Shown in pieces: positions 1 to 22,796 of a stretch of DNA of 34,246 nucleotides; position 1 is the stretch's first letter; every line of letters starts with the position of its first letter. The stretch is from positions 1-34,246 of the IMG/VR virus record IMGVR_UViG_3300031629_000032; one strand, given 5' to 3'. Made by a program: the position numbers and the translations under genes. Source of the DNA: a virus. The notes under the pieces were generated by a model. That model was not told where the DNA came from and did no database searches. It saw nothing but the letters and a program-made list of their open reading frames with translations.

Positions 1-3000
1 TAGCAGAGAGCCAGGTAGATCCGAAAAATGCTACTACTAACGAAGTTGAGCAAGTACAGGAAACGACTACTACTGCATCTGGAGTTACTCAAACAAAAAG
101 CTTATTTACAAAATTAAATTTTGAAGATGTTAAAAAAGCTATAAAACGTGATGAAAAATCATCTAAACGTTTTGGTTGGATAGCTACTTGGTATGGCCCA
201 ATAGATTATGAGTATTCAGGTATCAAACATGAAGCTCAAGAAATGTCTCCAGGTTTTGCTAATATTGCTAGAAAATTAGAAAAACGATTAGGACATCCAG
301 ACGGTTATTACAATAGCGCTTTAATGAATGTATTTCCTAAAGGTAAAGGAATTGGTAAACATGCAGATGATGAGTTTATTTATATAAGAGATAATGATAC
401 TATAGGCTCTGTAGCTACAATTAGTTTAGGGTCATCAGCAGAAATTACAATATCTCGTAATGACAATACACAAGAAGATGAGGTGTTTACTGTAGAAGAT
501 GGTGATTTATATGTAATGCCTGACGGTGTATTTCAACGTGAGAATAAACATTCAGTTGGAAAAGCAACTGGTGAACGTATTAGTATGACTTTTAGACATA
601 TACCAAGAAGCCAGTTAAGAGAAGTAGGACCTATTGAAAAAGAAGTAGCTACTGTGGGTGATCCATATGTACTATTTCAAGATAGCACAGGTAATGATGT
701 ATTTACTAATGCAGGTCAAACTACTGTAATTAATAAAATGAAAGAATGGTGGAAGTCCGCTGACAAAATGTTTGTATTAGCTGGTAGAGGTGGTACAGGT
801 AAAACTACAATTGTTGAAAAAGCATTAAATGAGTTAAAAGTTAATAAAGATAAAGTCTTGTTTGCTTTACCTACTCATAAATCTAAAAATGTAATAGCAA
901 AAGCTACTAGTTATAGAGAAGACCAGTACACAACACTTGCTAGTTTATTAGGACAAACAAAACAATACAATGCAAAAACACAAGAATGGTCTTTTGAAAA
1001 AGATTTAGATAAATTTGAAGCTTCTATGAAAGCTTTAGAAAAACAAGGAATTAATCTAATAGTAATAGATGAAGTATCTATGGTTACTGAAGAATTCCTT
1101 GTTGAAATATCTAAAATATCTAATGATATGAACATTAGAGTTATTTTTATGGGAGATAATGTGCAATTACCTCCTATTGAAGATAATAAAGGAAATATTG
1201 GGTTATCTGCAGTATTTGATAATGTAATGGGTTTTAATAATAAAACTGATTTAGGTATTAATGTAGACAATTATGTTAAATTGACAGAACGTATGCGTCA
1301 AGGCAAAGAATCACCTATTCTTGGTGTTACAGATATTATTGCAAATACAATTGAATGGCTTTTTAAAAACCCAAGACTTTACAACGGTTCAAAAAAAGAC
1401 ACAGGTTTTATATTACCTAAAGTTCCAGAAAATAGTAAACAAGATGGTGTACATTATATGGAGGGTACTCTTAAAGGTGGTTTAACAGACGCAACACTTG
1501 ATAAATTTGTTGAAGAATATAGTAAAGACCCTGCTAATGTTAAATATATTCATTTTAATAAAGAATCTAAAGCAAGAACAATTTCAATACGTTCACGGAT
1601 ACGTGAAAAACTATTTCCTAACATTGAAAATTCAGGTGATTTAAATGCGTTACCTTTTATAGAAGGTGAACGGATTGTTATGGGTGAGAGCGTTGCTGCT
1701 ATGAAAGATAACAAAGCAATGCGTTCAGTAGATTTAAATAATGGTGATGAAGTTACAGTAACGCAAGAGTTAAGAAATACAGAAGTTACTGTAGAAACAA
1801 CAGGAAATTTTGGTAAAGCTTTTTCTAATATACCTGTAAGAATACTAAGAGTTAAAACTGATGAAGATTTAGAATACAATTTAGTTTTTGATGATGGACA
1901 ACGTACTAAAGATGCTATACGTAAACAACAATCAGAAAATCAAAATCGTTATAACATGGAAAAGAAAGTAATAGACGAAGTAACTACATCCGAAGTTTCT
2001 GCAGGTTATTTACTTAATACTCATAAATCGCAAGGTAGTACTTATAAAACTGTATATGTTGATTATGAAAACATTATGGGTAATCAAAGTTCACCAGATT
2101 GGTTAACTAAATTACAATCATTGTATGTAGCTACTTCAAGACCTAGTGAACGTCTTGTGTTAGTAGGCACAGGTGATTTAGCATTTGGTACTGAAGGTAA
2201 AGATTTATCAGAAAATATTGAAATATTAAAGAATTTAGAAAATAATGAAGAAAGCTCTCCACGTGATAGTGAAGAGTTGTATTCATTAGATAATGATTTA
2301 GATATTGAAATGAAGTCTTTGTGGGATACAGACTCTCTTACAAACACTGCTCAAAATATATTTAATAAGCTTGGTAATCACTTTAAAACTTTTTATCCTA
2401 ATAGCCAAGAACAAGCTGCTCAACAAAGCCACTTACAGCGTGTTTTAAACGAGATTATTCTTCCGACAGGCAATGCCTTAGATAATGTGTCAGTTGAGCT
2501 GTTTAGTGCAGATGTTAAAGCATTTGGTGCTGTAAATCTAACAGACAAAAATGTAAGCATTGTATTAAACAATAAAAAACCTAATAGTTTTTCTGAACAA
2601 ACAGCACAAGAAGCATATTTACACGAAATAATTCACATATTAACAAATAGTGCGTTAGCTAAAGATTCTACTTTTAGAAATAATATTGCAGACATTAGAA
2701 ATTCTGTGAAAAAAGAATTACGTAAGATGGATCGTCCTTATGAGATATTCTTACATAAAGATGTTGATGGCAAGATAATTACATTAACAGATGCTGCTAC
2801 AGAAATACAAGCGGCTAAAGAACAATACAACTACTTGTTTGGGCCAACAAAGCCTCCTAAGTATGTATTAGATGAGTTTTTAGCTTATGCATTAACGAAC
2901 AAGCATTTAGTAAGACAACTAAGTACTATGCCAGCAAAGGTTGTTCCTTTATGGAATAAAGAAAGTGATGCAAATGTAATAGAAAAAATAATTGATTTGT

Positions 3001-5822
3001 TTACTGAACTAGTAAATAGATTAACAAACCTAATTCAGAAAAAACCTGTTTCTGGAACATTAGACATGAAAATCTTTCAACTAACTAAAGAGTTAGTCAA
3101 TGTTAGTCATTCTCAAGCAGGGACAGTTAGAAACATATTACAACGTCAAAACCTAGCTAGAGATTATGACAAAGCAAATGAAGTAGCATCTAATTTCCTT
3201 AAAAAAACAGTAACAGATGGTGTTAAATTTACATCAGATCAATATATTAAAGGTGTTGATAAGCTAACAAAAGACGGAAAAATTAATAACTTTTTTGCTA
3301 ATGTACTTTATGACAGTAAGTTAGCAGTATTGATGACATCAAGTTACGGCACATTTATTAATAATAATCCTAAAGTACAAAGATACTTAGATGCGGCTTT
3401 TAAAAACTTTAAGCCAGGATTAAAACAAAATATGGCTTCTTTAAAAGCAGATGCATTTGGTGGAATTAACGAAGATTTTATTAGGTTACTATACAAATCA
3501 CAAAAAGAAGTAGATGTAGCTCGTAGGCAATATAAACAGTTAACTGGAGAATCTTTGTTAAATGAATTTATAGATTTAGATTCAGTAACTGCTAATGAAA
3601 AGCAAGCATTAACTAGAGTGTTGTTAAAAGCAGATTTTTCAATATTAGAAGCAACAGGTGCTTACAACATGGAAGATGCTATTAAATTATTAAATGATGA
3701 TGCATTTTTACAAGAGCAAGTAGATAAATACGCTGGAATATTAGATATTACTAATAATAAACATTACGCTGCACAAACAGAAAGTTTAGCTGAATTTATG
3801 ATGTTAGGTAATCAATTTAATAATAATCAGTTTAAAAATGCACACTTAATTCATCAAAAAAACACTACTAATAGTAAAGCAACTGTTGAAGAAATAGACG
3901 TATATGTAACGTTATTATCTTTACAAAAACATGTAGAACCTTATAGTAAAAAAGAAGTTAGAACTGTAATAAACAGAGAGTTTAAAGGTAATAAAGATGC
4001 TAATGGAATTACTAATTTAATTTATCATCACATATCATTTAAAGAAAACAGTCGTAAAGAAAACTTTAATGATAATCCAGTATTGATGACTAAAGGTTAT
4101 ATAGCAAAAATTACAAACCCAACTATTCAAATAGAATTTGAATCAATGGACGCAGTTACAAAAAAACGTATGGAAGACGCTGATTACAAATTAGTGTCAG
4201 GTTTTGAGTCAGTAACAGGTGTAGGTGATAGTAATTACGGAATATATGTTAATTACAATTTACCTGATGCTATGCGAACTAAAGGTATAGCTTCTGTAAC
4301 GTCTTTACATCACGCAGGAAGCTCATTAAAAGAAATTTTAAGTAGAAATCCTGAAACAGAGGGTCAAATTAATTTATTAATTAAAAGATTTACACAGACC
4401 CAAACAGAAAAACAAAACACGTTAGATAAAAATCACACAATGATGCCTATTGTTAATGAAAAAGGAAAAATTGTTGATTACACAATACATATGAATCACG
4501 GATTAGTAGAAAGATTACTAGAACAAGAGCTTGCTTTTGACCAAGTTTTGCCAACTATGTATAGCCATTCATTAGATAAAGCATCATCAGAAAAAATTAA
4601 TAGAGAAGCAATTGATTTGTTAGATGCACACACTACACTTAACTACAGTAAAGAACCTCAAAAATATGTAAACATTTTAGAAGGTGAAAACAGAGATGAA
4701 TACTTTAATGTATTGCCTTTAGATACTCGTAATTACATATTAGATTTAGCTACAGAAAACAAAAAGAAAAAAGGAAGCCCAGCTTTTTATGTAGAAAGAA
4801 AATTGTTAGATACAGTTTTTGGTTATAAAATGCCAAGTATTGGTAATGCACCATTAATTAGAAATAATAAAAAAGTGCAGAAATACGCAAAAATAACAGA
4901 AAAATTAATGTTTGAATTAGTAGCGTTATCTAAAGTAAACATTGTAATAAAGATTCCTGCAGTATTAGCATTTAACATATTAAGTAATTTTACTACTTCA
5001 GTACTATATGGCATTCCTCCTACTTATTTAGTTAAAAAGTGGAGAGAAGGTTTTAAAGAACTTGAACGTTATCAAAAAGAACATAAAAAACTTCAATTGC
5101 TAGAATTAAAACAAGTAGGTAACCCAGCATTAAGAAATGATGTTGCTATACAAAACCAACAAGAAGTTTTAAAAGAAAGCTTAAATAATAATAAAGTTGC
5201 TAAACTTATGGACATGGGTTTATTTACTTCTATTACAGAAGATATTAATAAAAACGACTTTACTTATAGACATCAGAGTATGAGTACTCTTAGGAATACT
5301 AAAGTAGGTAAAAAGTTTGATAATATGTTTAAAGGGAATGTTGTTAAAGTAGCCAATCAAGCTTACATTGGCGAAGAAACTGCGTTATTTAAGACCATGA
5401 TGCATCTTACACAATCAAGTGATTTTATTGCTAGATACGCAATGTACAGCCATGCTATAGAAGTTAAAAACATGGATGAAAATAAAGCATATAAACAAAT
5501 GGTTGAAACGTTTGTAAATTATGATCAACCGCTTAATAGATATTTACAATATGGAAATGATATAGGATTGTTATTCTTTATTAAATATTGGTTAAGAATT
5601 CAAAGAGCTACGTTTAATATAGCAAAAGAAAAGCCTTTAAATATTGGAATGTTATATGTAGGTAATACTATGTTAGGATTTGATTTTGAATCAATTATGG
5701 AATCAAGTATATTAGCAGGTAATTTCTTCCCTACTTCAGGTGGACCACTTAAAGTATTAGAAGAAGTACTTATTCTTCCTGGATTGGAAATACTAAGTGG
5801 TGAAAGTTTAGGACTTACTTAA
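1..5822 (+). CDS. Giant multidomain (polyvalent) virion-type protein, 5'-partial: AlkB-like dioxygenase, SF1 helicase, zincin, C-terminal packaging-like region
   Basis: The frame is open from base 3, so the true start lies outside the window. The first Met is at 243 (residue 1 here), but the AlkB fold clearly begins before it (YEYSG about 12 codons upstream), after a Thr-rich linker. Domain 1 (to about 120) is an AlkB-type 2OG-Fe(II) oxygenase: iron ligands H40-x-D42 and H103, and 2OG-binding R112/R118 in ERISMTFR. Domain 2 (about 155-645) is a Dda/RecD-like SF1 helicase: Walker A GRGGTGKT 181-188, Walker B VIDE 274-277, GDNVQLPP 304-311, HKSQGST 594-600, YVATSR 628-633. Domain 3 (about 700-900) is a zincin: H794-E-I-I-H798 with E878 in DEFLAYA as possible third ligand. 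Residues 900-1859 are mostly unassigned. NYDQPLNRYLQYGNDIGLL (from 1759) resembles the C-terminus of N4-like virion RNA polymerases. I infer a protein packaged and injected with the DNA. Domain calls are firm; the virion role is inference. Confidence 0.85.
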   Translation, partial: AESQVDPKNATTNEVEQVQETTTTASGVTQTKSLFTKLNFEDVKKAIKRDEKSSKRFGWIATWYGPIDYEYSGIKHEAQEMSPGFANIARKLEKRLGHPDGYYNSALMNVFPKGKGIGKHADDEFIYIRDNDTIGSVATISLGSSAEITISRNDNTQEDEVFTVEDGDLYVMPDGVFQRENKHSVGKATGERISMTFRHIPRSQLREVGPIEKEVATVGDPYVLFQDSTGNDVFTNAGQTTVINKMKEWWKSADKMFVLAGRGGTGKTTIVEKALNELKVNKDKVLFALPTHKSKNVIAKATSYREDQYTTLASLLGQTKQYNAKTQEWSFEKDLDKFEASMKALEKQGINLIVIDEVSMVTEEFLVEISKISNDMNIRVIFMGDNVQLPPIEDNKGNIGLSAVFDNVMGFNNKTDLGINVDNYVKLTERMRQGKESPILGVTDIIANTIEWLFKNPRLYNGSKKDTGFILPKVPENSKQDGVHYMEGTLKGGLTDATLDKFVEEYSKDPANVKYIHFNKESKARTISIRSRIREKLFPNIENSGDLNALPFIEGERIVMGESVAAMKDNKAMRSVDLNNGDEVTVTQELRNTEVTVETTGNFGKAFSNIPVRILRVKTDEDLEYNLVFDDGQRTKDAIRKQQSENQNRYNMEKKVIDEVTTSEVSAGYLLNTHKSQGSTYKTVYVDYENIMGNQSSPDWLTKLQSLYVATSRPSERLVLVGTGDLAFGTEGKDLSENIEILKNLENNEESSPRDSEELYSLDNDLDIEMKSLWDTDSLTNTAQNIFNKLGNHFKTFYPNSQEQAAQQSHLQRVLNEIILPTGNALDNVSVELFSADVKAFGAVNLTDKNVSIVLNNKKPNSFSEQTAQEAYLHEIIHILTNSALAKDSTFRNNIADIRNSVKKELRKMDRPYEIFLHKDVDGKIITLTDAATEIQAAKEQYNYLFGPTKPPKYVLDEFLAYALTNKHLVRQLSTMPAKVVPLWNKESDANVIEKIIDLFTELVNRLTNLIQKKPVSGTLDMKIFQLTKELVNVSHSQAGTVRNILQRQNLARDYDKANEVASNFLKKTVTDGVKFTSDQYIKGVDKLTKDGKINNFFANVLYDSKLAVLMTSSYGTFINNNPKVQRYLDAAFKNFKPGLKQNMASLKADAFGGINEDFIRLLYKSQKEVDVARRQYKQLTGESLLNEFIDLDSVTANEKQALTRVLLKADFSILEATGAYNMEDAIKLLNDDAFLQEQVDKYAGILDITNNKHYAAQTESLAEFMMLGNQFNNNQFKNAHLIHQKNTTNSKATVEEIDVYVTLLSLQKHVEPYSKKEVRTVINREFKGNKDANGITNLIYHHISFKENSRKENFNDNPVLMTKGYIAKITNPTIQIEFESMDAVTKKRMEDADYKLVSGFESVTGVGDSNYGIYVNYNLPDAMRTKGIASVTSLHHAGSSLKEILSRNPETEGQINLLIKRFTQTQTEKQNTLDKNHTMMPIVNEKGKIVDYTIHMNHGLVERLLEQELAFDQVLPTMYSHSLDKASSEKINREAIDLLDAHTTLNYSKEPQKYVNILEGENRDEYFNVLPLDTRNYILDLATENKKKKGSPAFYVERKLLDTVFGYKMPSIGNAPLIRNNKKVQKYAKITEKLMFELVALSKVNIVIKIPAVLAFNILSNFTTSVLYGIPPTYLVKKWREGFKELERYQKEHKKLQLLELKQVGNPALRNDVAIQNQQEVLKESLNNNKVAKLMDMGLFTSITEDINKNDFTYRHQSMSTLRNTKVGKKFDNMFKGNVVKVANQAYIGEETALFKTMMHLTQSSDFIARYAMYSHAIEVKNMDENKAYKQMVETFVNYDQPLNRYLQYGNDIGLLFFIKYWLRIQRATFNIAKEKPLNIGMLYVGNTMLGFDFESIMESSILAGNFFPTSGGPLKVLEEVLILPGLEILSGESLGLT

Positions 5823-6262: not shown

Positions 6263-6964
6263 CTAGTTAAACAGTTTCTTGCCTGCAGGCTTATCACCTG
6301 AAGCTGCTGCGCCTGTAACAGCTTTAACTTTGTTAAGAGTTATACCTGTATTGCGGTCAGACCATTTAGGCATCATTAATGCTTCCTTAGCCTCTTTAGC
6401 TTTTTCAACTACAGTCAAATCAGTATCATGGAAATAGAATTCCTTGATTTCATTTTCATCTCTAGTTTCAGCAGAGTCTACATAAGTACCACTGCCATCG
6501 TTAACACGCTTGTTAACTACTTGCTTAAGAACTGCAACTTTAACTTGTTTACCTAATAAAGAAGTAGCAACGCTCTTCTCTGTAGGAACTTCTTTTCTTA
6601 CATTAAAGTCATAAACGTTAACCATCTTCTTTTCACTTTTATCAAATGCTTCATTGATATCATCACTTGTAATAATTAAAGATAGGTTGTTAGCTAAGTT
6701 GTAGCCTGGTAAGTAATCTTTCTTACCTTTTTGGTTAACATAATGAACTTCTTCCTTGCGGTTAGTAAACCAAAAAGTTTGCTTTAACTTTTTACCATCT
6801 TCATTTAGCAAAGTTACATTCAAAGAATGTGCTCCGCCTTTAGATTGATCAAAGTATGCCATATCTACTATTGTAGCATATACTCCAGAGTCCCATAGAT
6901 ATGAGCCTCCACCTAGGGAAGTTTCTTTCAATTTTATATCATCGTGCATACTAAATTTGCCCAT
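6263..6964 (-). CDS. Single-stranded DNA-binding protein, N4 SSB-like
   Basis: A 233-residue protein with an OB-like beta-rich core (about residues 20-105: SGVYATIVDMAYFD, SLNVTLLNEDGKKLKQTFWF) and a Lys-rich C-terminus (GDKPAGKKLFN). It starts at ATG 6964 with a purine-rich site about ten bases upstream. Length, core pattern and position at the end of the replication block facing the late virion gene match the N4-type SSB. In N4 that protein coats ssDNA in replication and recombination and also activates host sigma70 polymerase at late promoters. Here that dual role is inferred; a sigma70-like late promoter at 30709 fits it. The leader carries an 8-bp inverted repeat that could be an autoregulatory element. 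Confidence 0.75.
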   Translation of the reverse strand: MGKFSMHDDIKLKETSLGGGSYLWDSGVYATIVDMAYFDQSKGGAHSLNVTLLNEDGKKLKQTFWFTNRKEEVHYVNQKGKKDYLPGYNLANNLSLIITSDDINEAFDKSEKKMVNVYDFNVRKEVPTEKSVATSLLGKQVKVAVLKQVVNKRVNDGSGTYVDSAETRDENEIKEFYFHDTDLTVVEKAKEAKEALMMPKWSDRNTGITLNKVKAVTGAAASGDKPAGKKLFN

Positions 6965-6986
6965 AATAAAAATCTCCTTTAAATTT

Positions 6987-7022
6987 TGTTACTGAGAATA
7001 GAAATTTATAAAGGCAGTAACA
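6987..7022 (-). promoter_or_regulatory. Inverted repeat in the SSB leader
   Basis: TGTTACTG (6987-6994) and CAGTAACA (7015-7022) form an 8-bp stem with a 20-base loop. It ends about 22 bases before the SSB start codon, just upstream of the purine-rich ribosome site. Possible translational operator; the function is inferred only. Confidence 0.35.
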
Positions 7023-7050
7023 CCCTCAATAAATTGTTAGTTGTTTAAAC

Positions 7051-7067
7051 ACAGTGCGGAGCACTGT
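7051..7067 (-). promoter_or_regulatory. Candidate hairpin promoter with GGA loop, upstream of SSB
   Basis: ACAGTGC / GGA / GCACTGT gives a perfect 7-bp stem with a 3-base loop on the + strand, the template for leftward transcription. N4 virion RNA polymerase recognises template-strand hairpins of 5-7 bp with a 3-base purine-rich loop. The core GCGGAGC recurs at 26449 and 26870. It lies about 90 bp upstream of the SSB start. Confidence 0.45.
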
Positions 7068-7161
7068 TAGAATATAGAAGCACTTTTTATATAGACTATT
7101 TAGCGTACTCAGGCTGTAGCCTTGCTAACCTCACGGATTAGCGTTCTCCATTTGTAAAAGT

Positions 7162-7237
7162 TGGAACACTCAATTAAGTTGTAAGCGACTAAATATAGTA
7201 CCAGCACTACGGTGCTAATAATATTATGAGTGTTCCA
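7162..7237. other. Structured element: 11-bp stem enclosing two hairpins
   Basis: TGGAACACTCA (7162-7172) pairs with TGAGTGTTCCA (7227-7237). Inside are AGTTG/CGACT (7177-7181 with 7186-7190, loop TAAG) and AGCAC/GTGCT (7203-7207 with 7212-7216, loop TACG). One pair in the first inner stem is a wobble if the + strand is read as RNA and a mismatch on the - strand. The same plan recurs at 24819-24886 and 25703-25762. Confidence 0.5.
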
Positions 7238-7360
7238 GCGTTTAAAAACTAGATTAGAAAGCTACTTGTGTATACGATAGTAGCCGTACCGTTTCATAAA
7301 TTTGGTTAACTGAAGTCCAAGCCAATCCGTGTAAACTCAGAAAAGATTAACCAAAACCAA

Positions 7361-7388
7361 AATACACTTTCAGGGAGACTAGTGTATT
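7361..7388 (-). terminator. Weak candidate terminator downstream of the 7387 gene
   Basis: AATACACT (7361-7368) and AGTGTATT (7381-7388) form an 8-bp stem with a 12-base loop. It overlaps the stop codon of the leftward gene. The following RNA is T/G-rich (TTGGTTTTGG) rather than a clean U-run, so termination is uncertain. Confidence 0.35.
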
Positions 7389-7695
7389 ATTTTCTTCCAG
7401 AAGGTTTTCTTGCAGAAACACTACCAGTACCTACTCGTGTACCAAATTTCTTTTGGTTTTTTGCTACAGCTCTACCAAGTCTTTTCTTTGAACCAGTTGC
7501 TGTCATACCTCCAGGCCCAGTGTCTCTTTCTTGAACAGGACGAGAACCTTTTTCAGCTGCTGTTTTTTGATTTTTTCTTTTTATATCTGATTTATCGAAT
7601 CCTGGACCTGGTCCTATTTTAGTTTCAGGAAATTCGCTATTCATATTTTTTTGGGAATTACCCATAATTGTATTTTTTCTTGCTGCTCTTGCCAT
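7387..7695 (-). CDS. Small, strongly basic, low-complexity protein
   Basis: 102 residues, rich in Lys, Arg, Gly, Ser and Pro, with no obvious hydrophobic core, so largely disordered. Motifs such as KKRLGRAVAKNQKK and ARKPSGRK would suit nucleic-acid contact. The start at ATG 7695 has AGGAG at good spacing. It sits between SSB and the RusA group. No family is recognised; a nucleic-acid-binding accessory is the simplest guess. Confidence 0.65.
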   Translation of the reverse strand: MARAARKNTIMGNSQKNMNSEFPETKIGPGPGFDKSDIKRKNQKTAAEKGSRPVQERDTGPGGMTATGSKKRLGRAVAKNQKKFGTRVGTGSVSARKPSGRK

Positions 7696-7737
7696 AATAG
7701 TCTCCTTAACAATAATCTACATTTATTGTACAGAGTT

Positions 7738-7908
7738 TTATTTTAAATTTTGGACTTTATGTTGATGGCGTAAGTCTTCTAAAGTTCTTTTGTTACATCT
7801 AAAGATATACTGGTCATACGAATCTTCATAATTAGCTCCTCTTTTACTTGCTCTATCTGCGTAATCTAAAGCTAAAGCTTCACACAATTGTTCTTTTGTT
7901 AATGGCAT
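7738..7908 (-). CDS. Small hypothetical protein, 56 aa
   Basis: ATG at 7908 follows GGAG, and the frame begins three bases past the stop of the RusA gene, so it fills an otherwise empty gap in a tightly packed operon. The product starts MPLTKEQLCEALALDYADRA and is charged and probably helical (DLRHQHKVQ near the end). No family recognised. Packing, ribosome site and amino-acid composition support a real gene. Confidence 0.65.
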   Translation of the reverse strand: MPLTKEQLCEALALDYADRASKRGANYEDSYDQYIFRCNKRTLEDLRHQHKVQNLK

Positions 7909-7910
7909 TA

Positions 7911-8345
7911 CTATTCTCCAAAGGGGCTCATAGGAGGTGTAGCACCTAACCTACGTTTATCTAATTTACTAAAGTTACAAGTTATGCTTGCAGTATTGGA
8001 CCAAAACATTGTTGCTTTAAGCATTACTATTTGTCTATCGTCTTCATAGTAAATACCGTTTAAAGAATCTAGTATAGCTTTACAATAGTTATCAATATCA
8101 GCGTTATTGTCACAATATGCCCCATTTTTGAGTTCTTTGTCTTTCTTAGCCCAAGACTTAGGTATTGGTATATTAAAGACTAATTGGGCATATATGTTGC
8201 CTGTAATAGGTGTAACTTTAATGTCTTCTGTTAATTCAAGCATGTCTTGCTTAAACTTTGAATACTTCTTACCATAATAAGTTGACCAACGAGTAACTCT
8301 AGGTCTACTAGCAGGAGTAGGTATTATGTTAAATTCAACTTCCAT
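7911..8345 (-). CDS. rusA: RusA-family Holliday junction resolvase (endodeoxyribonuclease)
   Basis: 144 residues, the usual RusA size. N-terminal PTPASRPRVTRW (about 9-20) and tyrosines near 23-28 match the family entry motif. The acidic metal-binding centre is clear: NADIDNYCKAILDSLNG (81-97) with D83, D85 and D93, followed by EDDRQI (101-106). RusA enzymes cut four-way junctions and branched DNA symmetrically using Mg2+. In a phage this resolves recombination and replication intermediates before packaging. It begins one base after the upstream stop and probably works with the Sak4-like ATPase and PD-(D/E)XK nuclease further up the same operon. Confidence 0.88.
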   Translation of the reverse strand: MEVEFNIIPTPASRPRVTRWSTYYGKKYSKFKQDMLELTEDIKVTPITGNIYAQLVFNIPIPKSWAKKDKELKNGAYCDNNADIDNYCKAILDSLNGIYYEDDRQIVMLKATMFWSNTASITCNFSKLDKRRLGATPPMSPFGE

Positions 8346-8346
8346 A

Positions 8347-8538
8347 CTAATCTGTAGTTATTTCAAAAGATAATTTTAAATAATCTAAACCAATATTGAC
8401 TTCAGCTTTAATAGAATTATTCAATTCTGTGTCAGTAGGATTATTTTGATCTACCCAATCACTTTTGTATTTATCTGTAAATACGGGTTTCATTTCTGTT
8501 CTAACTACATTTAAATCAAGTGTTAAAGACAGTTCCAT
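8347..8538 (-). CDS. Hypothetical protein, 63 aa
   Basis: Starts at ATG 8538 with GGAG upstream. An alternating hydrophobic pattern suggests a small beta protein (MELSLTLDLNVV; SIKAEVNIGLDYLKLSFEI). The C-terminal NPTDT...VNIGLDYLKL resembles the end of the 9016-9285 product (YPTDT...VEIDVQFIKL), hinting at a shared small domain. Function unknown. Confidence 0.6.
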   Translation of the reverse strand: MELSLTLDLNVVRTEMKPVFTDKYKSDWVDQNNPTDTELNNSIKAEVNIGLDYLKLSFEITTD

Positions 8539-8539
8539 A

Positions 8540-8695
8540 TTATTTCTCCTGTTTTAAAGCTTTGTTAAAAGGCTTCCAAAAAGTTTCATTAATGTTTAAA
8601 GCTTTTTTAATAGTATTGGTCATACGATTCTGACGGTCTTTTTTTGAATCTTTATAATGTTTACTAGTTTGACCTTCATCTTTTGCAATGTACAT
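8540..8695 (-). CDS. Small basic hypothetical protein, 51 aa
   Basis: ATG at 8695 with AAGGAG upstream; the stop is followed at once by the next start codon. The product is Lys-rich and helical (SKHYKDSKKDRQNRMTNTIK, then FWKPFNKALKQEK). It fills an otherwise empty gap between two genes of the leftward operon. No family recognised. Confidence 0.6.
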   Translation of the reverse strand: MYIAKDEGQTSKHYKDSKKDRQNRMTNTIKKALNINETFWKPFNKALKQEK

Positions 8696-8696
8696 A

Positions 8697-9005
8697 TTAA
8701 CTCCTTTCATTAATACTTAACCAAGTAACACGTTGATCTTCTGATATAAAGCTTTCATGCCGTTCTATAAGCAATTTATGTTCTTTTAACTCTCCAACAG
8801 CACGCTTAATTGTTGATATTGACTTATCTTGAAAATAGTTGTGATGTCTTATATTAGTAATACATGTACTATGCATTGCTGCTGCAAAAATATAAATATC
8901 TTTAGCAGTATCTGATAAATTATAACCTTGTAATGAGTCGTTAATTTTTCTTTGTACCAACTCTTTTTTACGCCACATTATTTGATAATTTTTTAATAAT
9001 CTCAT
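8697..9005 (-). CDS. Winged-helix DNA-binding protein
   Basis: 102 residues. The middle and C-terminal half reads as a winged helix: a helical lead (LSDTAKDIYIFAAAMHS), a recognition-helix-like segment (KSISTIKRAVGELKEHKLL, about 64-82) and a wing (ISEDQRVTWLSI). The start at ATG 9005 has GGAG upstream. This pattern is common in replication-initiation and small regulatory proteins of phages. It may regulate the middle operon or bind an origin; which is not visible. Confidence 0.55.
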   Translation of the reverse strand: MRLLKNYQIMWRKKELVQRKINDSLQGYNLSDTAKDIYIFAAAMHSTCITNIRHHNYFQDKSISTIKRAVGELKEHKLLIERHESFISEDQRVTWLSINERS

Positions 9006-9015
9006 ATAGATTCTC

Positions 9016-9285
9016 CTAAATTAATTTAATAAACTGAACATCTATTTCAACATTAGCTTTAGTATCAGTTGGATAGTCTTCAAGTAAATATGAAGGAACA
9101 GTTTTAGAGTCTTTTAATAAATCTTTAAGACCAAATCTAACATCTTTGTGAACTATGCTCATAAAGTATGGTGATATAAAGCCTGCAATTTGTTCCGTTG
9201 TTTTGTTTTTAAAGTACCAATTAAAAAATGTTTCTTTTCTAAGTTGATATTGACCTTGTTTAGGGATTATAGAAATATTTGTCAT
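9016..9285 (-). CDS. Hypothetical protein, 89 aa
   Basis: Start at ATG 9285 overlaps the upstream gene's stop (ATGA), indicating translational coupling. Aromatic-rich N-terminal half (FFNWYFKN), then a helix, then a beta-like end (YPTDTKANVEIDVQFIKLI) resembling the 8347-8538 product. Unknown function. Confidence 0.6.
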   Translation of the reverse strand: MTNISIIPKQGQYQLRKETFFNWYFKNKTTEQIAGFISPYFMSIVHKDVRFGLKDLLKDSKTVPSYLLEDYPTDTKANVEIDVQFIKLI

Positions 9286-9467
9286 GAACTTATCTCTGTT
9301 ACTTCAACAACTACTTCAAGTTCATCTGGAAATCCTATTGTTCTTCCAGCTGCATCTATAACGTTAACTAATTTATATATTTTATTAGTATCAGGTTTTT
9401 TAGAATTATCTGGCACACCACTAGGGTGTTCTATCAGATCTCTAAGTTTTAAGACTTTTAAAGTCAT
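9282..9467 (-). CDS. Hypothetical protein, 61 aa
   Basis: ATG at 9467 with GGAG upstream. Beta-rich small protein with a C-terminal acidic strand (DELEVVVEVTEI). Coupled to the next gene by a four-base overlap. No family recognised. Confidence 0.6.
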   Translation of the reverse strand: MTLKVLKLRDLIEHPSGVPDNSKKPDTNKIYKLVNVIDAAGRTIGFPDELEVVVEVTEISS

Positions 9468-9476
9468 TTTTTTCTC

Positions 9477-9593
9477 CTATAAAATATATTGTTCGTATTG
9501 TTCAAACCATAGGGCTATATAAACAACACTGACAGTTATTACACCAAACATTAAAAAGTTTAGCGTATTAATTAGTAATTTAAAAGCATTCAT
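9477..9593 (-). CDS. Small single-span membrane protein, 38 aa
   Basis: ATG at 9593 is preceded by TAGGAG. The product has one clear hydrophobic helix (about 12-31, FLMFGVITVSVVYIALW) and a short polar tail. It fits exactly between two genes, and its stop forms part of the next ribosome site. Function unknown. Confidence 0.6.
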   Translation of the reverse strand: MNAFKLLINTLNFLMFGVITVSVVYIALWFEQYEQYIL

Positions 9594-9601
9594 AATATCT
9601 C

Positions 9602-9799
9602 CTAATTAAGTAAATTTAACAACATAGTATTTCCTTTTTTAGTCAATACTTCTTTCGTTTCAGCAAATACACGTAAACGTGCTTTTAAATCTTCATCACC
9701 TAAAAGTAAATCTCTCATGATATCCATTGATAGTTCTTTGTTTTCTAATTCACCATCAACAAATCGCATTAGATCCATGTCTGAAAATTTCTTAGTCAT
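9602..9799 (-). CDS. Small acidic hypothetical protein, 65 aa
   Basis: Overlaps the end of the RecA-fold ATPase gene by eight bases, suggesting coupled translation. Starts MTKKFSDMDLMRFVDGELEN, a helical acidic segment resembling the N-terminus of anti-sigma-like zinc-finger proteins (DLMRFVDGEL), but without the Cys/His ligands. Unknown role. Confidence 0.6.
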   Translation of the reverse strand: MTKKFSDMDLMRFVDGELENKELSMDIMRDLLLGDEDLKARLRVFAETKEVLTKKGNTMLLNLLN

Positions 9800-10511
9800 C
9801 GTAGTACTCGTGTAGTCTGTCTAAAATGCTTTGTAAATTATTGTCAATATAAGTTTCTTGTGTAGTCCACATACGCATAGGGCTTCTAATACGTTCATTA
9901 ACAGTATCTTTAGTTAATCTAGTTTGGAAAACATATTTAAACTCTAATTCTGTTTCTTCTTCATTATAAGTTAATAAAGGTGATTTATAATCTTCTAAGC
10001 GTTTATTTCCTACTTTTTTAGAAGCAATAACAGTACTAAAATAGCTTTCTATGCCAGTATTCATAAGAGAACCTTTAACTTTAACCATTGTTTCGTTAAC
10101 CATTTCAGATTCATTAAAAATATCTGAAGTGTGGGCAATAAAAATAATATTCTTATCTGAGTTACCTACATTTTGAGACATCATATTTTTCATAAACTGT
10201 GCGTATGAACCCCAAGCTTTCATTGTATTAGTTGAAGTAAGCACTTTAGTGCTTTCATACATGTCCATAAGGTAAGTTAAACTATCAATAACAATAGTAT
10301 GAATTTTTTTATCACCTTTAACTGAGTCGATTGCATCTGGGACATCAGTTGGGTCAGTAATAGTAAATTCTTTAAACTTAGATTTAAATGGTAACTTTTT
10401 ATTGTTTTCACAATTTAAATACATAACCCCTTCTGGGTTTTTTAACATTTGTAAACTTGCGGATTTACCTGTAGCAGACTTGCCACATAACAGTACTAAA
10501 TTATTGTTCAT
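9792..10511 (-). CDS. RecA-fold ATPase, Sak4-like (recombination mediator)
   Basis: 239 residues. Walker A GKSATGKS at 10-17, Walker B VIDS at 74-77 (D76), and a sensor strand IIFIAHTSD at about 122-130. This RecA-core-only layout is typical of phage Sak4/AAA_24 ATPases that assist single-strand annealing or replication together with the phage SSB; N4-like phages carry one at this place. GGAG precedes the ATG at 10511, whose first base also belongs to the primase stop codon region. The operon context (SSB, primase-helicase, PD-(D/E)XK nuclease) supports a recombination role; the exact activity is inferred. Confidence 0.78.
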   Translation of the reverse strand: MNNNLVLLCGKSATGKSASLQMLKNPEGVMYLNCENNKKLPFKSKFKEFTITDPTDVPDAIDSVKGDKKIHTIVIDSLTYLMDMYESTKVLTSTNTMKAWGSYAQFMKNMMSQNVGNSDKNIIFIAHTSDIFNESEMVNETMVKVKGSLMNTGIESYFSTVIASKKVGNKRLEDYKSPLLTYNEEETELEFKYVFQTRLTKDTVNERIRSPMRMWTTQETYIDNNLQSILDRLHEYYDD

Positions 10512-12655
10512 TATTTACTCTCCTTTTGAAGTATTTTTTTATCAATTGATCTCATAATCTTTGTATGAATTTCTTCTTGACTTATTGGGTCAGTCATTTG
10601 TTCATTAAAAGTTATAAGTTTGTTACTAATAGCGTCTACTGGGTAGCCGTTATCCATCAGCATAAAGCCGTATCTAATAAGCATAGTTGCTCTATTACCT
10701 ACTTCAATGCGACTAGAAAACCATCTTTCCATATTGCTCATGCCTTTAGCATCAAGAATCTTTTGTTCTTGTTCTATAGCTTTTTTAGTTTGAGGAATAA
10801 ATAAAGTGGCATCTATAAGTTCACCATCATTGTAATAGTAAGGTCCTTCATGTGACATCCATTTTCTGGCAATGTCTTTTGTAGCTGTGTCACACTCAAA
10901 AGGTAACCAATTAAAGACATTCTCCATAAATTTAGAATAGTCTCTTGGCTTAAGTTTTAAGTAATGAGACATTGGAAATATAATTCTAAATCTGTTTTGT
11001 TCAGCTGTATGTCGCTTAGTAGTAGCAAATAAAGTTTTATAGTCACTAAGAAGTTCTCTAGCTGAGTCTAGGCTGCATTCACCATCTATATCTAGTATTA
11101 ACAAGTTAAAACCAGGTATAGCTTTTTCACTAGTACGATACTTCTGTAAGAAGTTGTGTGCAGTATAGTGATAGCCTGGAGCACTTACTAACTCGTGTAA
11201 ACGATTAAACTTAGTTATTGCGCCATCAAAGTTTTCGGTTATATCAGTACTATAAGCTACTTGTATTTTATCTAAGTTAGTTTCTTTTAAAGCTTCGCCA
11301 GATAAAAACTCAATTTCATCAATGTAGCTTTTACGAATAATAATATTATTCTTGTAGCCCCATGCAACAGCTAAAGATAACATATCTTTCTTTTGTGACT
11401 CTGGGCCTCTATAAAAGGGCAACTCTTCAATTAAATCTACTTGGGTAATCTCTTTGCCTACGTCAGCAATATATCTTGCTAAACGGGCATATGAGCCTTC
11501 CTTAGTAATAATTCTATTAAAGTGACCACCTGAATCTTCTACAAGTTGTATAGCAGCATCAAGATGACTTTTATTAACATCTTTACTGCCTTCTACAAAT
11601 GCATAAGCACCTGCTAGCTTTAAAGCTTTGTAATAACGATGTGATAGCTCAGCTTTTTTAATGTCTTCATGCATCTTTAGCTTAGAAGACCTTGTTTCAC
11701 ACTGAATTTTGTAATTAAGTAAGTGAATAGTATCTTCTTTGCTAAGAGTTAGCACGGTGTTAAATTTATTCCTATCAGCTAGATTAGTAATAATCTGGCT
11801 AATACGTAATGTATCTTTAACAACATTAGTAGCAGTTAATGCATCGTATAGTTCTTCTGCAGTTTGTTTTTTGTAATCATTCAAAGTGTTTGTATAACCA
11901 AATAGCATTCTACGAGCATAGCCCGTCTCAAGCATTTGTTTAAACTCTTCTTCTGTCTTACTACCATCTAATAATTTAGTTGGTGTACCAAACAACATAA
12001 GGTTAGTGGGCGTTTTGCCAATGAGCTCTTCGCCACGTTTGTTTTCTGAAGTATTTTTTGTTAGCTTTTGTTTTACTTTTCCTACATCGTATAACTCTAG
12101 GAAAGTATTAAGCATCTCTACATTGCTAGTTAGGTTTGAACCTACCTCATCTAACTCTAGATTCATAGAACCTGCGTTAGACATTAGCAATTTGAGTCTC
12201 ATTTGTTTGACTGCTGGTGCTGTACCACTATCAAAACTAAAAGCTAAAGTACCTAAAGAATCATATTCTTTTTGTACATCAGCCATTGCTTCATCCGAAG
12301 ACATATTAGGATTGATACTTTGGCGTCTTGCTGCAATCTGCAACAATTCAGCATTACTTTCTCCAGGTAAGACATTACTTAAGAACTTTGTTCTAAAGCC
12401 ATCAATAATATCTTCTTCCATGATATTAGTTGAGAAGCCTTTGCCTGTACCTGATGGCATAAGATTAAGAACATAAGAGTTAACGGGTATTACCCCCCTA
12501 TCTCTTGTCTCAATATTACATCGCATCATTGAAGATACTTTAGAAAAGTAATAAGCGACTAACAATCTAAAGAAGTGTCTATTTTGAGATTGCGTTTTAG
12601 CAACTAAAATATCTACAATCTCTTCAGAGAATTTGAAGTATTTAGGTTCTGACAT
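10511..12655 (-). CDS. Helicase-like ATPase fused to a C-terminal archaeo-eukaryotic-type primase domain
   Basis: 714 residues. The N-terminal ATPase (about 40-260, DUF3987-like) has Walker A PSGTGKG at 67-73 and Walker B LELDE at 166-170. A helical middle follows. Around 515-565 there is an AEP primase signature: LDIDG (521-525, metal-binding D522/D524), KRHT with H549, and RFRIIFP at 555-561. The tail (about 640-714) is helical like a PriCT domain. It would unwind DNA and lay primers for the family-A polymerase. The order ATPase-then-primase is the reverse of the common phage primase-helicase order. It corresponds by size and place to the N4 gp42-type replication protein. ATPase call strong, primase call good. 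Confidence 0.78.
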   Translation of the reverse strand: MSEPKYFKFSEEIVDILVAKTQSQNRHFFRLLVAYYFSKVSSMMRCNIETRDRGVIPVNSYVLNLMPSGTGKGFSTNIMEEDIIDGFRTKFLSNVLPGESNAELLQIAARRQSINPNMSSDEAMADVQKEYDSLGTLAFSFDSGTAPAVKQMRLKLLMSNAGSMNLELDEVGSNLTSNVEMLNTFLELYDVGKVKQKLTKNTSENKRGEELIGKTPTNLMLFGTPTKLLDGSKTEEEFKQMLETGYARRMLFGYTNTLNDYKKQTAEELYDALTATNVVKDTLRISQIITNLADRNKFNTVLTLSKEDTIHLLNYKIQCETRSSKLKMHEDIKKAELSHRYYKALKLAGAYAFVEGSKDVNKSHLDAAIQLVEDSGGHFNRIITKEGSYARLARYIADVGKEITQVDLIEELPFYRGPESQKKDMLSLAVAWGYKNNIIIRKSYIDEIEFLSGEALKETNLDKIQVAYSTDITENFDGAITKFNRLHELVSAPGYHYTAHNFLQKYRTSEKAIPGFNLLILDIDGECSLDSARELLSDYKTLFATTKRHTAEQNRFRIIFPMSHYLKLKPRDYSKFMENVFNWLPFECDTATKDIARKWMSHEGPYYYNDGELIDATLFIPQTKKAIEQEQKILDAKGMSNMERWFSSRIEVGNRATMLIRYGFMLMDNGYPVDAISNKLITFNEQMTDPISQEEIHTKIMRSIDKKILQKESK

Positions 12656-12656
12656 A

Positions 12657-12974
12657 TTACCCCTTATTTACTGGGGCATAACCACCATCTTTATGAATAA
12701 TTCTATGATAAACGCTTCTGCTTTTATCAATATTTAACTCGTTATTACAAAACTTTGTAAATTCTGCATAAGTAGAAACATTGTAATCTTCTCTATATTT
12801 ATACAGTTTACGAATAATACTAATTTGTTTTTTAGTTAAACTTACATTATCACGAGTTTTACGTTTAACTTTTGTTAATATTATTGGTCTTATATTAGAT
12901 AAACGTTTTTCTTCTATAGGTTTAACGTCTTGTTTATCACTAAACCAGTCTTTCACGGATTGCCAGATTTTCAT
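12657..12974 (-). CDS. Small basic helix-turn-helix-like protein
   Basis: 105 residues, very basic. After a Lys/Arg-rich stretch, residues about 45-95 read as a helix-turn-helix (SLTKKQISIIRKLYKY, then LNIDKSRSVYHRIIHK). The start overlaps the end of the nuclease gene (ATGA), so translation is coupled. Probably binds DNA; whether as a replication accessory or a regulator is unknown. Confidence 0.55.
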   Translation of the reverse strand: MKIWQSVKDWFSDKQDVKPIEEKRLSNIRPIILTKVKRKTRDNVSLTKKQISIIRKLYKYREDYNVSTYAEFTKFCNNELNIDKSRSVYHRIIHKDGGYAPVNKG

Positions 12975-13951
12975 AACACTAATCTCCCTTGTTGTATTAA
13001 ATTTTGAGCTTGTTTACATATGTCAGACACTTCACAGTATCTGCAAGCTTTTACTTCTCCGGGTACAGTAACTACTGTCCCTACTCCACCGTCACTGGCT
13101 AAGCGTATATTTGCTTCATCCAAACTATCGTAGTTCTTAGTAGCTCTAGCCATTTTGGTAGGATTCTTATAATATTTATATTTAGTTTCAGATTCCCACA
13201 GTTCTTCCTTAGTACATTCTGGAAGTTCTTCTTGAGGGCGACCTTTGAATTGCTCTAGTCGTTCTAGCTTTTCTTTAATAAAGTGGTCAGTCTGTTCTAC
13301 AGACCATATTGGATATTCTTTAGTTAACACTCTTGTTTGAGGATAACTTGGATCTCTCATTGCTTGAGCTGCTGACCAATCTGTAAATATATATTGAATA
13401 TGTACAGCGTTATCTGTGATTCTGTTTGGTGCTAACCATTTGTAGATACTAGCTTGCTGTGTATACTTTAAAGCGTTAGAATCGAAGATATAAGACCATA
13501 CGGATGTACTTTTATAATCTGATACAGTGCCATCTACGACTAAGTCATATTTGCCAGAGATTATGTAGTCTCCAACTTCTTTTTCATGTCGTTGTTCTAC
13601 ATAAATAGGAATGTCACCTTCTTTAACTGTCTCAGGATTAATGACAAGTTTTTCATCTAAGTTAGATACTTGTAATGCCTGTAGTGCTTTAGTAATGTTT
13701 GCTCTGTTAGTCCAAGCTTGTTCTGCTACAGCATGTATAGCTGAGCCCATCCTAGCACTAACTAAACTCATAATGTCTACTGTCTTGTCTAAACCTTTGT
13801 ACTCATTTATTAAAACGAGTGCTCTTGTGGGTTTAAGTAGTGAAGTTGCACTAATAACATTACTACGACTGTCATAGTCGTAATCGTCATGCATTAGCCA
13901 TACAGCTAACGGTAGAGACACGTTGTCCTTATTGGTATATTTAAATGCCAT
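12971..13951 (-). CDS. PD-(D/E)XK nuclease (RecB/Cas4-like exonuclease)
   Basis: 326 residues. ISATSLL (33-39) and GSAIHAVAE (69-77) match the entry helix of RecB-type nucleases. The catalytic core is GKYD (133-136, D136) and DYK (145-147, D145-x-K147), spaced as in PD-(D/E)XK enzymes. The C-terminus has a cysteine cluster (ACRYCEVSDIC), similar to the iron-sulfur ligands of Cas4/AddB-type nucleases, although the fourth ligand is not certain. Likely a DNA-end exonuclease in phage recombination or host DNA breakdown, matching the N4 gp44-type gene in this operon. Metal-site geometry is inferred from sequence only. Confidence 0.78.
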   Translation of the reverse strand: MAFKYTNKDNVSLPLAVWLMHDDYDYDSRSNVISATSLLKPTRALVLINEYKGLDKTVDIMSLVSARMGSAIHAVAEQAWTNRANITKALQALQVSNLDEKLVINPETVKEGDIPIYVEQRHEKEVGDYIISGKYDLVVDGTVSDYKSTSVWSYIFDSNALKYTQQASIYKWLAPNRITDNAVHIQYIFTDWSAAQAMRDPSYPQTRVLTKEYPIWSVEQTDHFIKEKLERLEQFKGRPQEELPECTKEELWESETKYKYYKNPTKMARATKNYDSLDEANIRLASDGGVGTVVTVPGEVKACRYCEVSDICKQAQNLIQQGRLVL

Positions 13952-14173
13952 CTATAATCTCCTTCTTGTATGTTTTCTTTCAATGATTTTAGGAAAAGTT
14001 AGGTAGTATCCAATACCAAAACCTTCAGGACAATCAGATACTCGATGACCCTCTTTACCTTTAATACCATGACCATGTCTACCATTACAAAAAGGACATG
14101 TTACAAATGCAGTATTTTTTGAGTAATCCATGACATCAGCCATTACAGTAGGTATTTTATTTGAATCGTGCAT
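13952..14173 (-). CDS. Small zinc-ribbon-like protein, 73 aa
   Basis: C26-x2-C29 (TCPFC), followed by H33, H35 and H43 and by C48 (VSDCPEG), gives a possible zinc knuckle; the end is strongly basic (RKHTRRRL). It sits directly between the DNA polymerase and nuclease genes, with adjacent starts and stops. Likely a small nucleic-acid-binding accessory; no named family recognised. Confidence 0.6.
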   Translation of the reverse strand: MHDSNKIPTVMADVMDYSKNTAFVTCPFCNGRHGHGIKGKEGHRVSDCPEGFGIGYYLTFPKIIERKHTRRRL

Positions 14174-14177
14174 ATTT

Positions 14178-16649: not shown

Positions 16650-16661
16650 AAGTGTCCTTAT

Positions 16662-16892
16662 TTAGTGAAAAGTATTAGGAATTTCGTCTTCTTCAAAGTC
16701 GTGAAACATACTTAATAGCTCAAAAGATTTATGTAAATATAACTCTGAGCGTTCGTGATAATAAGCAATTGCTTCTTTTGAATTAACTTGGTCATAATCG
16801 TCTATGTTATTAACAGCTACGTATTTCTCAAAACAAAGTGCTTTAGCAAGTGTTTCGACTAAATATTCTAGGGGTATTTTATCTTCAGACAT
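16662..16892 (-). CDS. Small acidic hypothetical protein, 76 aa
   Basis: Helical, acidic protein (IPLEYLVETLAKALCFEKYV; ELYLHKSFELLSMF) with no cysteine or histidine pattern. Its start abuts the stop of the VWA gene, so it is probably co-translated with it. Function unknown. Confidence 0.6.
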   Translation of the reverse strand: MSEDKIPLEYLVETLAKALCFEKYVAVNNIDDYDQVNSKEAIAYYHERSELYLHKSFELLSMFHDFEEDEIPNTFH

Positions 16893-16893
16893 T

Positions 16894-18003
16894 TTATTTT
16901 AAATAGATTGTTTCACCTACAGGTTGAGTGTGCTTATTGTCGGAGGTGCATATCCATAGTATAGGATACTCTCCAACATCTCTCACCTCATCTGCATATA
17001 AATCTGTGAAATAGATTAATACTTCAGGACTGATTTCATTACAGTAATCAATTACTGGCTGAAAATCTGTTCCTCCGTAACCATGAAACTTTAAGTCTAA
17101 AATGTTATCATATTTTTCAATTTCAAAAACATTATGTATTTCAGCATCACAATCTATAATTGTTAGCTTGTTAGGTTTAAAAGTGTCTCTTATGTTTTCA
17201 ATTTCAGTAAGCATCTCAGTTAATTCATCTTGATTAACACTACCACTTGTATCTATAGCTACTACAATTTGTCCAATAGTATAAGATTGTTGACTTGGTA
17301 AATAATAAGTAGGGTAGAAGCGTTTATTAGGCTTAGCCCAAGAATAATCATCTTTGACTAAGTCTGACATATATCTTTGTAGTATTTCATACCAAGGTAG
17401 TCTAGGATTAATTAACTTATCAATAGCTCTTGAGATTTCACCAGGAATCTCGCCTTTGTCTTTATTAGCTATTTTTGATTGTATTTGAGCTTTAATAATC
17501 ATATCTGTAATTTTGCTCTCTACATCTTTAGAAGTTAGTCCTGGTGGTGGATCTAGTAAGTCAACTTCAAAATCAGAACCTCCATGTGAATCATCAGGTT
17601 CTTCTTTAATAATTTCATAGACTTCTTCAGTACTCATTTCTCTAAATCTTTCGTCATAGAGCCCGCCTTTAGGAATAGTAAATCCTGCTGCAGTTAACAT
17701 ATAGTTAATAACATAGTCACCTGCTTTGTTCCAAATCATTTTGTCTCTGGTACCAACTCGGGTTAAATGACTAAAGGCTACATGCCACACTTCGTGTGCC
17801 AGTAGCCCAGTACGTTCTGCTGGACTTAAGCCATTAAGAAAGTCTGGGTTGTATAGAATAGATAATCCATTAGTAGCAGCAGTAGGTATTACTTCGCTAA
17901 ACTCATGTTTAAGACTTAGGCATATAGTAGATAAGAAGACTGATTTAGTCATCAAATCTATCTTAGAATGTCTAAGTTGAGTATCTGATTGAGTATTTTC
18001 CAT
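16894..18003 (-). CDS. VWA-like protein with zinc-metallopeptidase motif (DUF2201-type), partner of the MoxR ATPase
   Basis: 369 residues. The N-terminal domain has H70-E71-x2-H74 in HEVWHVAFSH, with H79 a possible further ligand, so it could bind zinc. The C-terminal domain (about 243-369) is a VWA fold with a complete MIDAS: DTSGS at 251-255, a GYGGTDFQP threonine, and a FTD aspartate. The MoxR gene is four bases upstream. MoxR-VWA pairs act as metal-dependent chaperones or remodelling machines, and N4-like phages carry this pair (gp24/gp25 type) with unknown function. Substrate and timing are not visible here. Confidence 0.8.
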   Translation of the reverse strand: MENTQSDTQLRHSKIDLMTKSVFLSTICLSLKHEFSEVIPTAATNGLSILYNPDFLNGLSPAERTGLLAHEVWHVAFSHLTRVGTRDKMIWNKAGDYVINYMLTAAGFTIPKGGLYDERFREMSTEEVYEIIKEEPDDSHGGSDFEVDLLDPPPGLTSKDVESKITDMIIKAQIQSKIANKDKGEIPGEISRAIDKLINPRLPWYEILQRYMSDLVKDDYSWAKPNKRFYPTYYLPSQQSYTIGQIVVAIDTSGSVNQDELTEMLTEIENIRDTFKPNKLTIIDCDAEIHNVFEIEKYDNILDLKFHGYGGTDFQPVIDYCNEISPEVLIYFTDLYADEVRDVGEYPILWICTSDNKHTQPVGETIYLK

Positions 18004-18007
18004 TAGG

Positions 18008-19036: not shown

Positions 19037-19045
19037 TATAGTTCC

Positions 19046-19666: not shown

Positions 19667-19872
19667 TTCTTCTCCTTTGGTTTGTTAATAAGATTAGTAA
19701 AATGGCTGGAAGCCATATTTAAATTACGTGCTGAAGCACGAGCTTTTATGAATTTATCTGTGTAATCCATGCTATCTGCTTCTGGATCTACAGGCATGTA
19801 GTCAGAATCTAAATAACCTTCATCTTTAGCCCACTCAGCGTAAGCTTTCATTTGTCCCATATACTTCTCCAA
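19663..19872 (-). CDS. Hypothetical protein, 69 aa
   Basis: Acidic-then-basic small protein (AYAEWAKDEGYLDSDYMPVD; INKPKEKK at the end). It overlaps the preceding gene's end by 25 bases and the next start by four. An internal ATG six codons in (MKAYAEW) is an alternative start. No family recognised. Confidence 0.55.
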   Translation of the reverse strand: MEKYMGQMKAYAEWAKDEGYLDSDYMPVDPEADSMDYTDKFIKARASARNLNMASSHFTNLINKPKEKK

Positions 19873-20069
19873 ATTTCTGAAACTGTTTCATTTTCAGATT
19901 CTGATAAACCTTTCCACCATAGTGGAGAGATACTTATAACATTGCCAATTCTTTGAGAATCGTCAACATTGCCATTTTCACTAGCTTTAAAGATTTCACC
20001 TTTTTGATCGATGAATTCATGCTTGCTTTTTATAAAAATATATTCAGTTTTCATTAGTGACACGGACAT
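19848..20069 (-). CDS. Hypothetical protein, up to 73 aa
   Basis: The longest frame starts at ATG 20069. The Met at 20054 (MKTEYIFIKS) would shorten the overlap with the upstream gene and is equally likely. The product is beta-like at the start, then has a tryptophan-rich C-terminal helix (PLWWKGLSES; EIWRSIWDK). Unknown. Confidence 0.5.
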   Translation of the reverse strand: MSVSLMKTEYIFIKSKHEFIDQKGEIFKASENGNVDDSQRIGNVISISPLWWKGLSESENETVSEIWRSIWDK

Positions 20070-20840: not shown

Positions 20841-20842
20841 AA

Positions 20843-22784: not shown

Positions 22785-22796
22785 ATACAAAGTACA

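Follow-up and report, generated by a model that had tools for sequence, protein, structure and literature searches.

An AlkB-type dioxygenase and an SF1 helicase within a fragment of a probable injected virion RNA polymerase from an N4-like phage

The virion RNA polymerase (vRNAP) of phage N4 is injected into the host, acts on single-stranded hairpin promoters, and needs host gyrase and SSB; the end of the N4 genome that carries the promoters enters first (PMC4496689). Its C-terminal domain contains an HExxH motif and has a role in regulation of the polymerase, and ejection is described as well (PMC12633501). The N4 RNA polymerase has been named as one kind of polyvalent protein, with ART, lysozyme, and PBECR domains as payloads, and the peptidase of polyvalent proteins is thought to release such payloads after entry (Iyer et al. 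2017, PMC5512222). The words AlkB and dioxygenase are absent from the main text of that study, which describes no SF1 helicase in a vRNAP, and the main text of a survey of N4-like viruses (PMC10654107) has neither AlkB nor helicase. AlkB domains do occur inside polymerase polyproteins with a helicase in the replicases of plant RNA viruses (Flexiviridae, Closteroviridae), where their position is variable and probably reflects several integrations (PMC544882). As payloads of an N4-type vRNAP, AlkB and an SF1 helicase are undescribed in the sources searched (open PMC papers).

The stretch of DNA analyzed here, called the window, is a virus record of 34,246 bases from IMG/VR, IMGVR_UViG_3300031629_000032. 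It contains on its plus strand a single uninterrupted open frame for 1939 amino acids, its 5' end cut by the start of the contig, in which an AlkB domain, an SF1 helicase, and the C-terminal domain of an N4-type vRNAP follow one another. We are highly confident that this frame encodes a vRNAP fragment with genuine AlkB and helicase modules. Features referred to below are as follows.

3..5822, plus strand: open frame, very probably the C-terminal part of an N4-type vRNAP with AlkB and helicase modules (open frame, profile and tblastn matches)
84..617, plus strand: AlkB-type Fe(II)/2OG dioxygenase domain, residues 28-205 (PF13532, AF2, Foldseek, homology limits)
327..335, plus strand: N109-V-F111, the NxY motif with Phe replacing Tyr, common to five phage copies (43-sequence alignment)
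360..368, plus strand: HxD iron ligands H120 and D122 (invariant, 43 sequences)
549..551, plus strand: distal iron ligand H183 (invariant, 43 sequences)
576..596, plus strand: R192-x5-R198, the 2OG-binding arginines, with S194 replacing the usual Asn (43-sequence alignment)
705..2180, plus strand: SF1 Dda/RecD-like helicase, residues 235-726 (profile matches, motifs; 71% identical in L002)
783..809, plus strand: Walker A, GRGGTGKTT, residues 261-269 (motif scan)
1065..1082, plus strand: Walker B, IDEVSM, residues 355-360 (motif scan)
2340..5795, plus strand: C-terminal domain of N4-type vRNAP, residues about 780-1931 (tblastn, phrog_2206, IMG/VR matches)
2622..2636, plus strand: HEIIH, second HExxH segment of the vRNAP C-terminal domain, residues 874-878 (aligned with HELIH at 3571 in L002)
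6263..24640, minus strand: convergent N4-like block of SSB, RusA, Sak4-like, primase, exonuclease, DNA polymerase, ATPase, helicase, and RNA polymerase genes (matches in the same order in Schitoviridae)

A first-pass annotation made from the window alone had placed AlkB and then the helicase in a protein extending to 2180, with AlkB residues counted from a Met at 243. The order of the two domains stands, and their covalent linkage is supported, but the frame does not end at 2180. Met243 is ruled out as the protein start. It is residue 81 of the open frame, within the AlkB domain, and homology to the phage copies of AlkB begins at residue 18-28 or thereabouts, about 160 nt upstream; Met243 is therefore internal to the domain, and the frame extends off the contig.

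No vRNAP identity had been given in that annotation; the roughly 1150 residues that follow the helicase are an N4-type vRNAP C-terminal domain. Residues from about 780 to 1930 match Schitoviridae vRNAPs by tblastn at 22-24% identity with E-values down to 5e-51, the score against the family phrog_2206 ('virion RNA polymerase') is 753 bits, and contigs of metagenomic viruses match the domain at 41-47%. Like N4 gp50 and the Schitoviridae vRNAPs of phrog_2206, the window protein has a C-terminal domain with HExxH and belongs to proteins of giant size. Its gene, as in N4 and Schitoviridae, is convergent to a block with SSB, primase, and DNA polymerase, the gene order being that found beside the vRNAP in isolated Schitoviridae, and this convergent replication and transcription block marks the phage as N4-like. 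Unlike the window protein, the vRNAPs examined from isolated Schitoviridae (3449, 3495, and 3095 amino acids) lack both AlkB and this helicase.

In common with polyvalent proteins (PMC5512222), the window protein is a single phage polypeptide that combines several unrelated enzyme domains with a zincin-type peptidase segment. The peptidase assignment is based on HExxH and homology to vRNAP, a Pfam SprT-like match falling under its cut-off. The window protein is very probably a fragment of a polyvalent polymerase, itself probably injected with the DNA. The earlier suggestion of a probable virion protein that is injected thus becomes specific, the protein being an N4-type vRNAP and injection being carried over from N4 by homology.

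The remainder of the window gives some indication of what lies beyond it. From 24640 to 30703, minus-strand middle and early genes are followed by plus-strand terminase genes. In the N4 map, middle and early genes and terminase genes are at opposite genome ends, so the contig probably crosses the genome-end junction. The late structural genes, together with the remainder of the vRNAP, are then probably in the missing half of the phage genome. A search for N4-like hairpin promoters in the window at 24.6-27.3 kb found no enrichment.

The closest relative, in contig L002, encodes a giant protein, 4632 amino acids of which are in view, with polymerase, HELIH, helicase (71% identical to that of the window), a second HELIH, and the C-terminal domain in one chain. 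The N4-type polymerase domain is present in L002 and also in a second relative, G016. Judging from L002, the polymerase domain of the window protein should sit off the contig. L002 has no AlkB domain, and its homology to the window protein begins at window residue 220, directly after AlkB. Both payload enzymes of the window protein are placed just ahead of the second HExxH segment. At about 1500-1650 in L002, the N-terminal stretch of the giant protein contains GIDAPET, which by eye resembles a staphylococcal-nuclease motif; there is no Pfam match.

The AlkB domain matches PF13532 (2OG-FeII_Oxy_2) over residues 45-198 with an E-value of 3e-12 and a score of 47.5 bits, above the curated cut-off of 31.2. 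The Fe(II)/2OG site listed by the first-pass annotation proved exact in every residue, H40, D42, H103, R112, and R118 counted from Met243 corresponding to H120, D122, H183, R192, and R198. These five residues and N109 are invariant in all 43 aligned AlkBs. Residue 111, at the tyrosine of NxY, is Phe in all five phage copies and Tyr in all 38 bacterial AlkBs; residue 194, at the Asn position between the arginines, is Ser in the five phage copies and in three of the 38 bacterial ones. We take both positions to be ones that contact 2OG in AlkB. Neither NxY nor the inter-arginine Asn is universal across the AlkB family, with Ser found in FTO. Phe for Tyr and Ser for Asn could alter or weaken turnover.

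Structure prediction, proposed earlier as the check for a double-stranded beta-helix, returned an AlkB-type fold. AlphaFold with the 43-row alignment gave the domain a pLDDT of 91.1 and a pTM of 0.85; this model replaced a single-sequence prediction of the AlkB part that had a pLDDT of 42 and a meaningless Foldseek list. The best PDB matches by Foldseek are ALKBH3, ALKBH2, and E. coli AlkB (prob 1.0, E about 1e-10, TM about 0.6-0.7), which share with the window domain the fold, the iron ligands, the 2OG arginines, and the TFR motif. Identity to the three is 14-24%, and the window domain differs from them in the Phe at the NxY tyrosine and in its location in a giant phage protein; by sequence, ALKBH3 is the only convincing solved relative. 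Among viral structure matches, the AlkBs of plant RNA viruses rank at the top. Their replicases contain a methyltransferase and an RdRp and belong to RNA viruses, unlike the window protein; the layouts are alike, with no common descent of the whole protein.

The helicase module matches AAA_30 (2e-17), AAA_19 (2e-15), and phrog_325 'Dda-like helicase' (2e-61), with Dda-like and RecD-like similarity extending over residues 235-760. In addition to the Walker motifs, MGDNVQLPP occurs at residue 383, NTHKSQGSTY at 672, and YVATSRPSERL at 708, so that SF1 motifs I, Ia, II, III, V, and VI are complete and in order. These profiles and motifs bear out the proposal of a complete Dda/RecD-like helicase directly after AlkB. 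Motifs and domain order are those of T4 Dda and RecD-like SF1 helicases (phrog_325), but Dda-like helicases are annotated as separate genes in the phages listed, whereas the window helicase lies inside a virion polymerase.

Six contigs have the same helicase but no AlkB: L002, L020, L021, L022, L023, and L133. The position of the helicase varies: it precedes the polymerase in L023, belongs to a separate protein in L020 and L021, and is fused to a region resembling the vRNAP C-terminal domain in L133. In L020 (6395-10939) and L021, the separate protein has 1515 amino acids and its own HEVGH motif and is encoded upstream of the vRNAP on the same strand; possibly it is an additional ejected protein. 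In L133 (9698-15784), a 2029-residue protein begins with the helicase and ends in a part that weakly resembles the vRNAP C-terminal domain (20% identity); it is separate from a 2697-residue open frame upstream.

Initial scans, with patterns taken from no protein but that of the window, returned L002 only or nothing. Scans of IMG/VR with two different peptide patterns both returned the same four further contigs carrying the AlkB clade of the window, G015 to G018. G015 and G016 each encode an N4-like vRNAP in which AlkB precedes an HExxH segment as well as the polymerase and C-terminal domains. The G016 protein is encoded by an uninterrupted frame of 4811 codons in an N4-like genome (L026:211-14643). 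The N-terminal part of the same vRNAP has a DUF7831 domain (PF25176, E 4e-32) at residues 1340-1448, possibly another payload. In G017 and G018, AlkB lies in proteins of 2912 and 2980 amino acids with an HExxH segment, in which no polymerase domain was detected; these phages have an integrase, a DnaB-like helicase, and ParB and are unrelated to the N4-like phages. The five phage AlkBs form one clade with 100/100 support in a tree with 38 bacterial AlkBs, which were chosen by similarity to the query, so that the tree is not a global AlkB tree.

Searches by tblastn with three clade members against 50,697 annotated phage records returned only distant, smaller AlkB-type matches, and neither this AlkB in a vRNAP nor this AlkB beside a helicase was found among those records. 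The open PMC papers searched likewise contained no phage protein with the fusion, in agreement with the first-pass annotation, which knew of no described phage protein of this architecture. Plasmid records gave distant AlkB matches only, at 27-33% identity, the annotated ones being named AlkB. One match, to 'Acinetobacter phage MD-2021a' (CAKLQH020000005.1, L024), was rejected as a phage sequence; its surroundings, with ada, pgsA, and aaeB, look bacterial-chromosomal.

Comparisons within the clade point to movement of the AlkB module between otherwise unrelated giant phage proteins. The DNAs of G017 and G018 (L027, L028) are 92-99% identical, mostly 95-96%, over long shared stretches. Their giant proteins, in contrast, agree at only 26-40%, apart from a 1047-base block that surrounds AlkB, where identity is 96.9%. 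In G017 the HExxH segment follows AlkB, and in G018 it precedes AlkB. By these comparisons, the difference between the two giant proteins is a natural module swap. Between G015 and G016, DNA identity reaches 88.5% in a block of 566 bases at AlkB, compared with 71-77% in other matched stretches, and synonymous divergence is 0.28 in AlkB vs 1.02 in the polymerase domain; the lower value in AlkB indicates exchange rather than constraint alone. The window and G016 are 51% identical in AlkB and 25% in the C-terminal domain. Ratios of dN to dS in AlkB, 0.016/0.133 or about 0.12 for G017 and G018 and 0.088/0.278 or about 0.3 for G015 and G016, indicate purifying selection on the domain.

Among the proteins found, AlkB and this helicase share one chain only in the window, in one contig. 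The notion of an obligate AlkB-helicase unit was rejected; four relatives have AlkB but not this helicase, and the six contigs named above have the helicase but not AlkB, so the pairing is probably not obligate. The unit is probably the polyvalent vRNAP itself, with AlkB and helicase as two exchangeable modules.

The evidence leans toward a polyvalent vRNAP, packaged in the capsid and ejected, whose AlkB and helicase act during DNA entry. Packaging and ejection would be inherited from N4 by homology. The protein would be ejected into the host along with the genome, and like N4 vRNAP would begin on hairpin promoters while the genome is drawn in. The helicase would open or track the entering DNA and so provide single strands for the polymerase and for AlkB. 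AlkB, of ALKBH2/3 type, would oxidatively strip methyl groups, whether lesions of the 1meA/3meC type or methyl marks, from the entering DNA or the first transcripts before any phage gene product is made, and clearing them would keep the few injected polymerases unblocked. The HExxH segments may split the chain into separate enzymes after entry. That AlkB works on nucleic acid at entry seems reasonably probable, and that the helicase serves AlkB is a tentative proposal that we rather doubt. We infer the enzyme activity, its substrate, and cleavage at HExxH from the domains present; as this helicase is joined to AlkB in no other protein found, functional coupling of the two is likewise inferred. 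What the sequences do establish is the identity of the parts, the AlkB fold with its sites intact, maintenance of the AlkB clade by purifying selection, and the repeated occurrence and exchange of its module.

Several other explanations bear on the same observations. In the main rival reading, an injected AlkB would serve counter-defense by erasing or oxidizing methyl marks, in phage DNA, host DNA, or RNA, that host defense reads or makes, instead of repairing random alkylation damage. The sporadic, exchanged distribution among phages fits a payload in an arms race, as has been argued for the sporadic AlkBs of jumbo phages (PMC7824862), and the clade-specific F111 could signal a changed substrate or cofactor use; with repair enzymes (ALKBH2, ALKBH3, AlkB) as its nearest folds, however, this role is on the unlikely side. 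The domain might instead modify a protein, for instance the RNA polymerase of the host or one of its ribosomal proteins, in the manner of other 2OG oxygenases. Modification of host proteins is also the presumed role of vRNAP payloads such as ART (PMC5512222), but the fold and TFR motif are those of the AlkB branch that acts on nucleic acid, and the neighbors in the chain are nucleic-acid enzymes, which makes this very unlikely.

Two further readings question the locus itself. If the contig were an assembly chimera, its first 640 or so bases would come from another phage and be joined to a helicase-bearing vRNAP. The absence of AlkB from L002, whose homology begins right behind that domain, would fit, as would the presence of the AlkB-helicase junction in one contig, close to the contig end. 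Yet the frame runs on without a break, the AlkB part stays within the range of the remaining frame in GC3 and codon use, giving no sign of a chimera by composition, no identical AlkB occurs elsewhere (the closest is about 54% identical), and the same clade lies inside the vRNAPs of two other contigs; we regard a chimera as highly improbable. Least probable of all is that AlkB is catalytically dead or relaxed, a mere structural bead of the ejected chain, as the Tyr-to-Phe and Asn-to-Ser changes at 2OG contacts might suggest, against which stand the invariance of all iron ligands and both arginines, the low dN/dS, and transfer of the domain as a unit.

Returning to the injected polyvalent vRNAP, a wider meaning can be offered, to which we give somewhat less than even credence. 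A dedicated, mobile clade of AlkB may be an injected payload that moves from one giant virion protein to another across unrelated phages and works on nucleic acid ahead of phage gene expression; here it would be physically joined with a helicase and with an RNA polymerase, in a layout convergent with AlkB-bearing plant RNA-virus replicases. If the protein is injected and active, the cell would receive a base-repair or mark-erasing enzyme among its earliest phage proteins, joined to the very polymerase with which infection begins. Sharing of the module by unrelated phages would then point to strong pressure from the host, through alkylation damage or methyl-based defense. A demethylase and an SF1 helicase would join the list of polyvalent-protein payloads, and convergence of layout with the AlkB-bearing replicases of plant RNA viruses would become a testable case. 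Assays are available from the well-studied N4 system.
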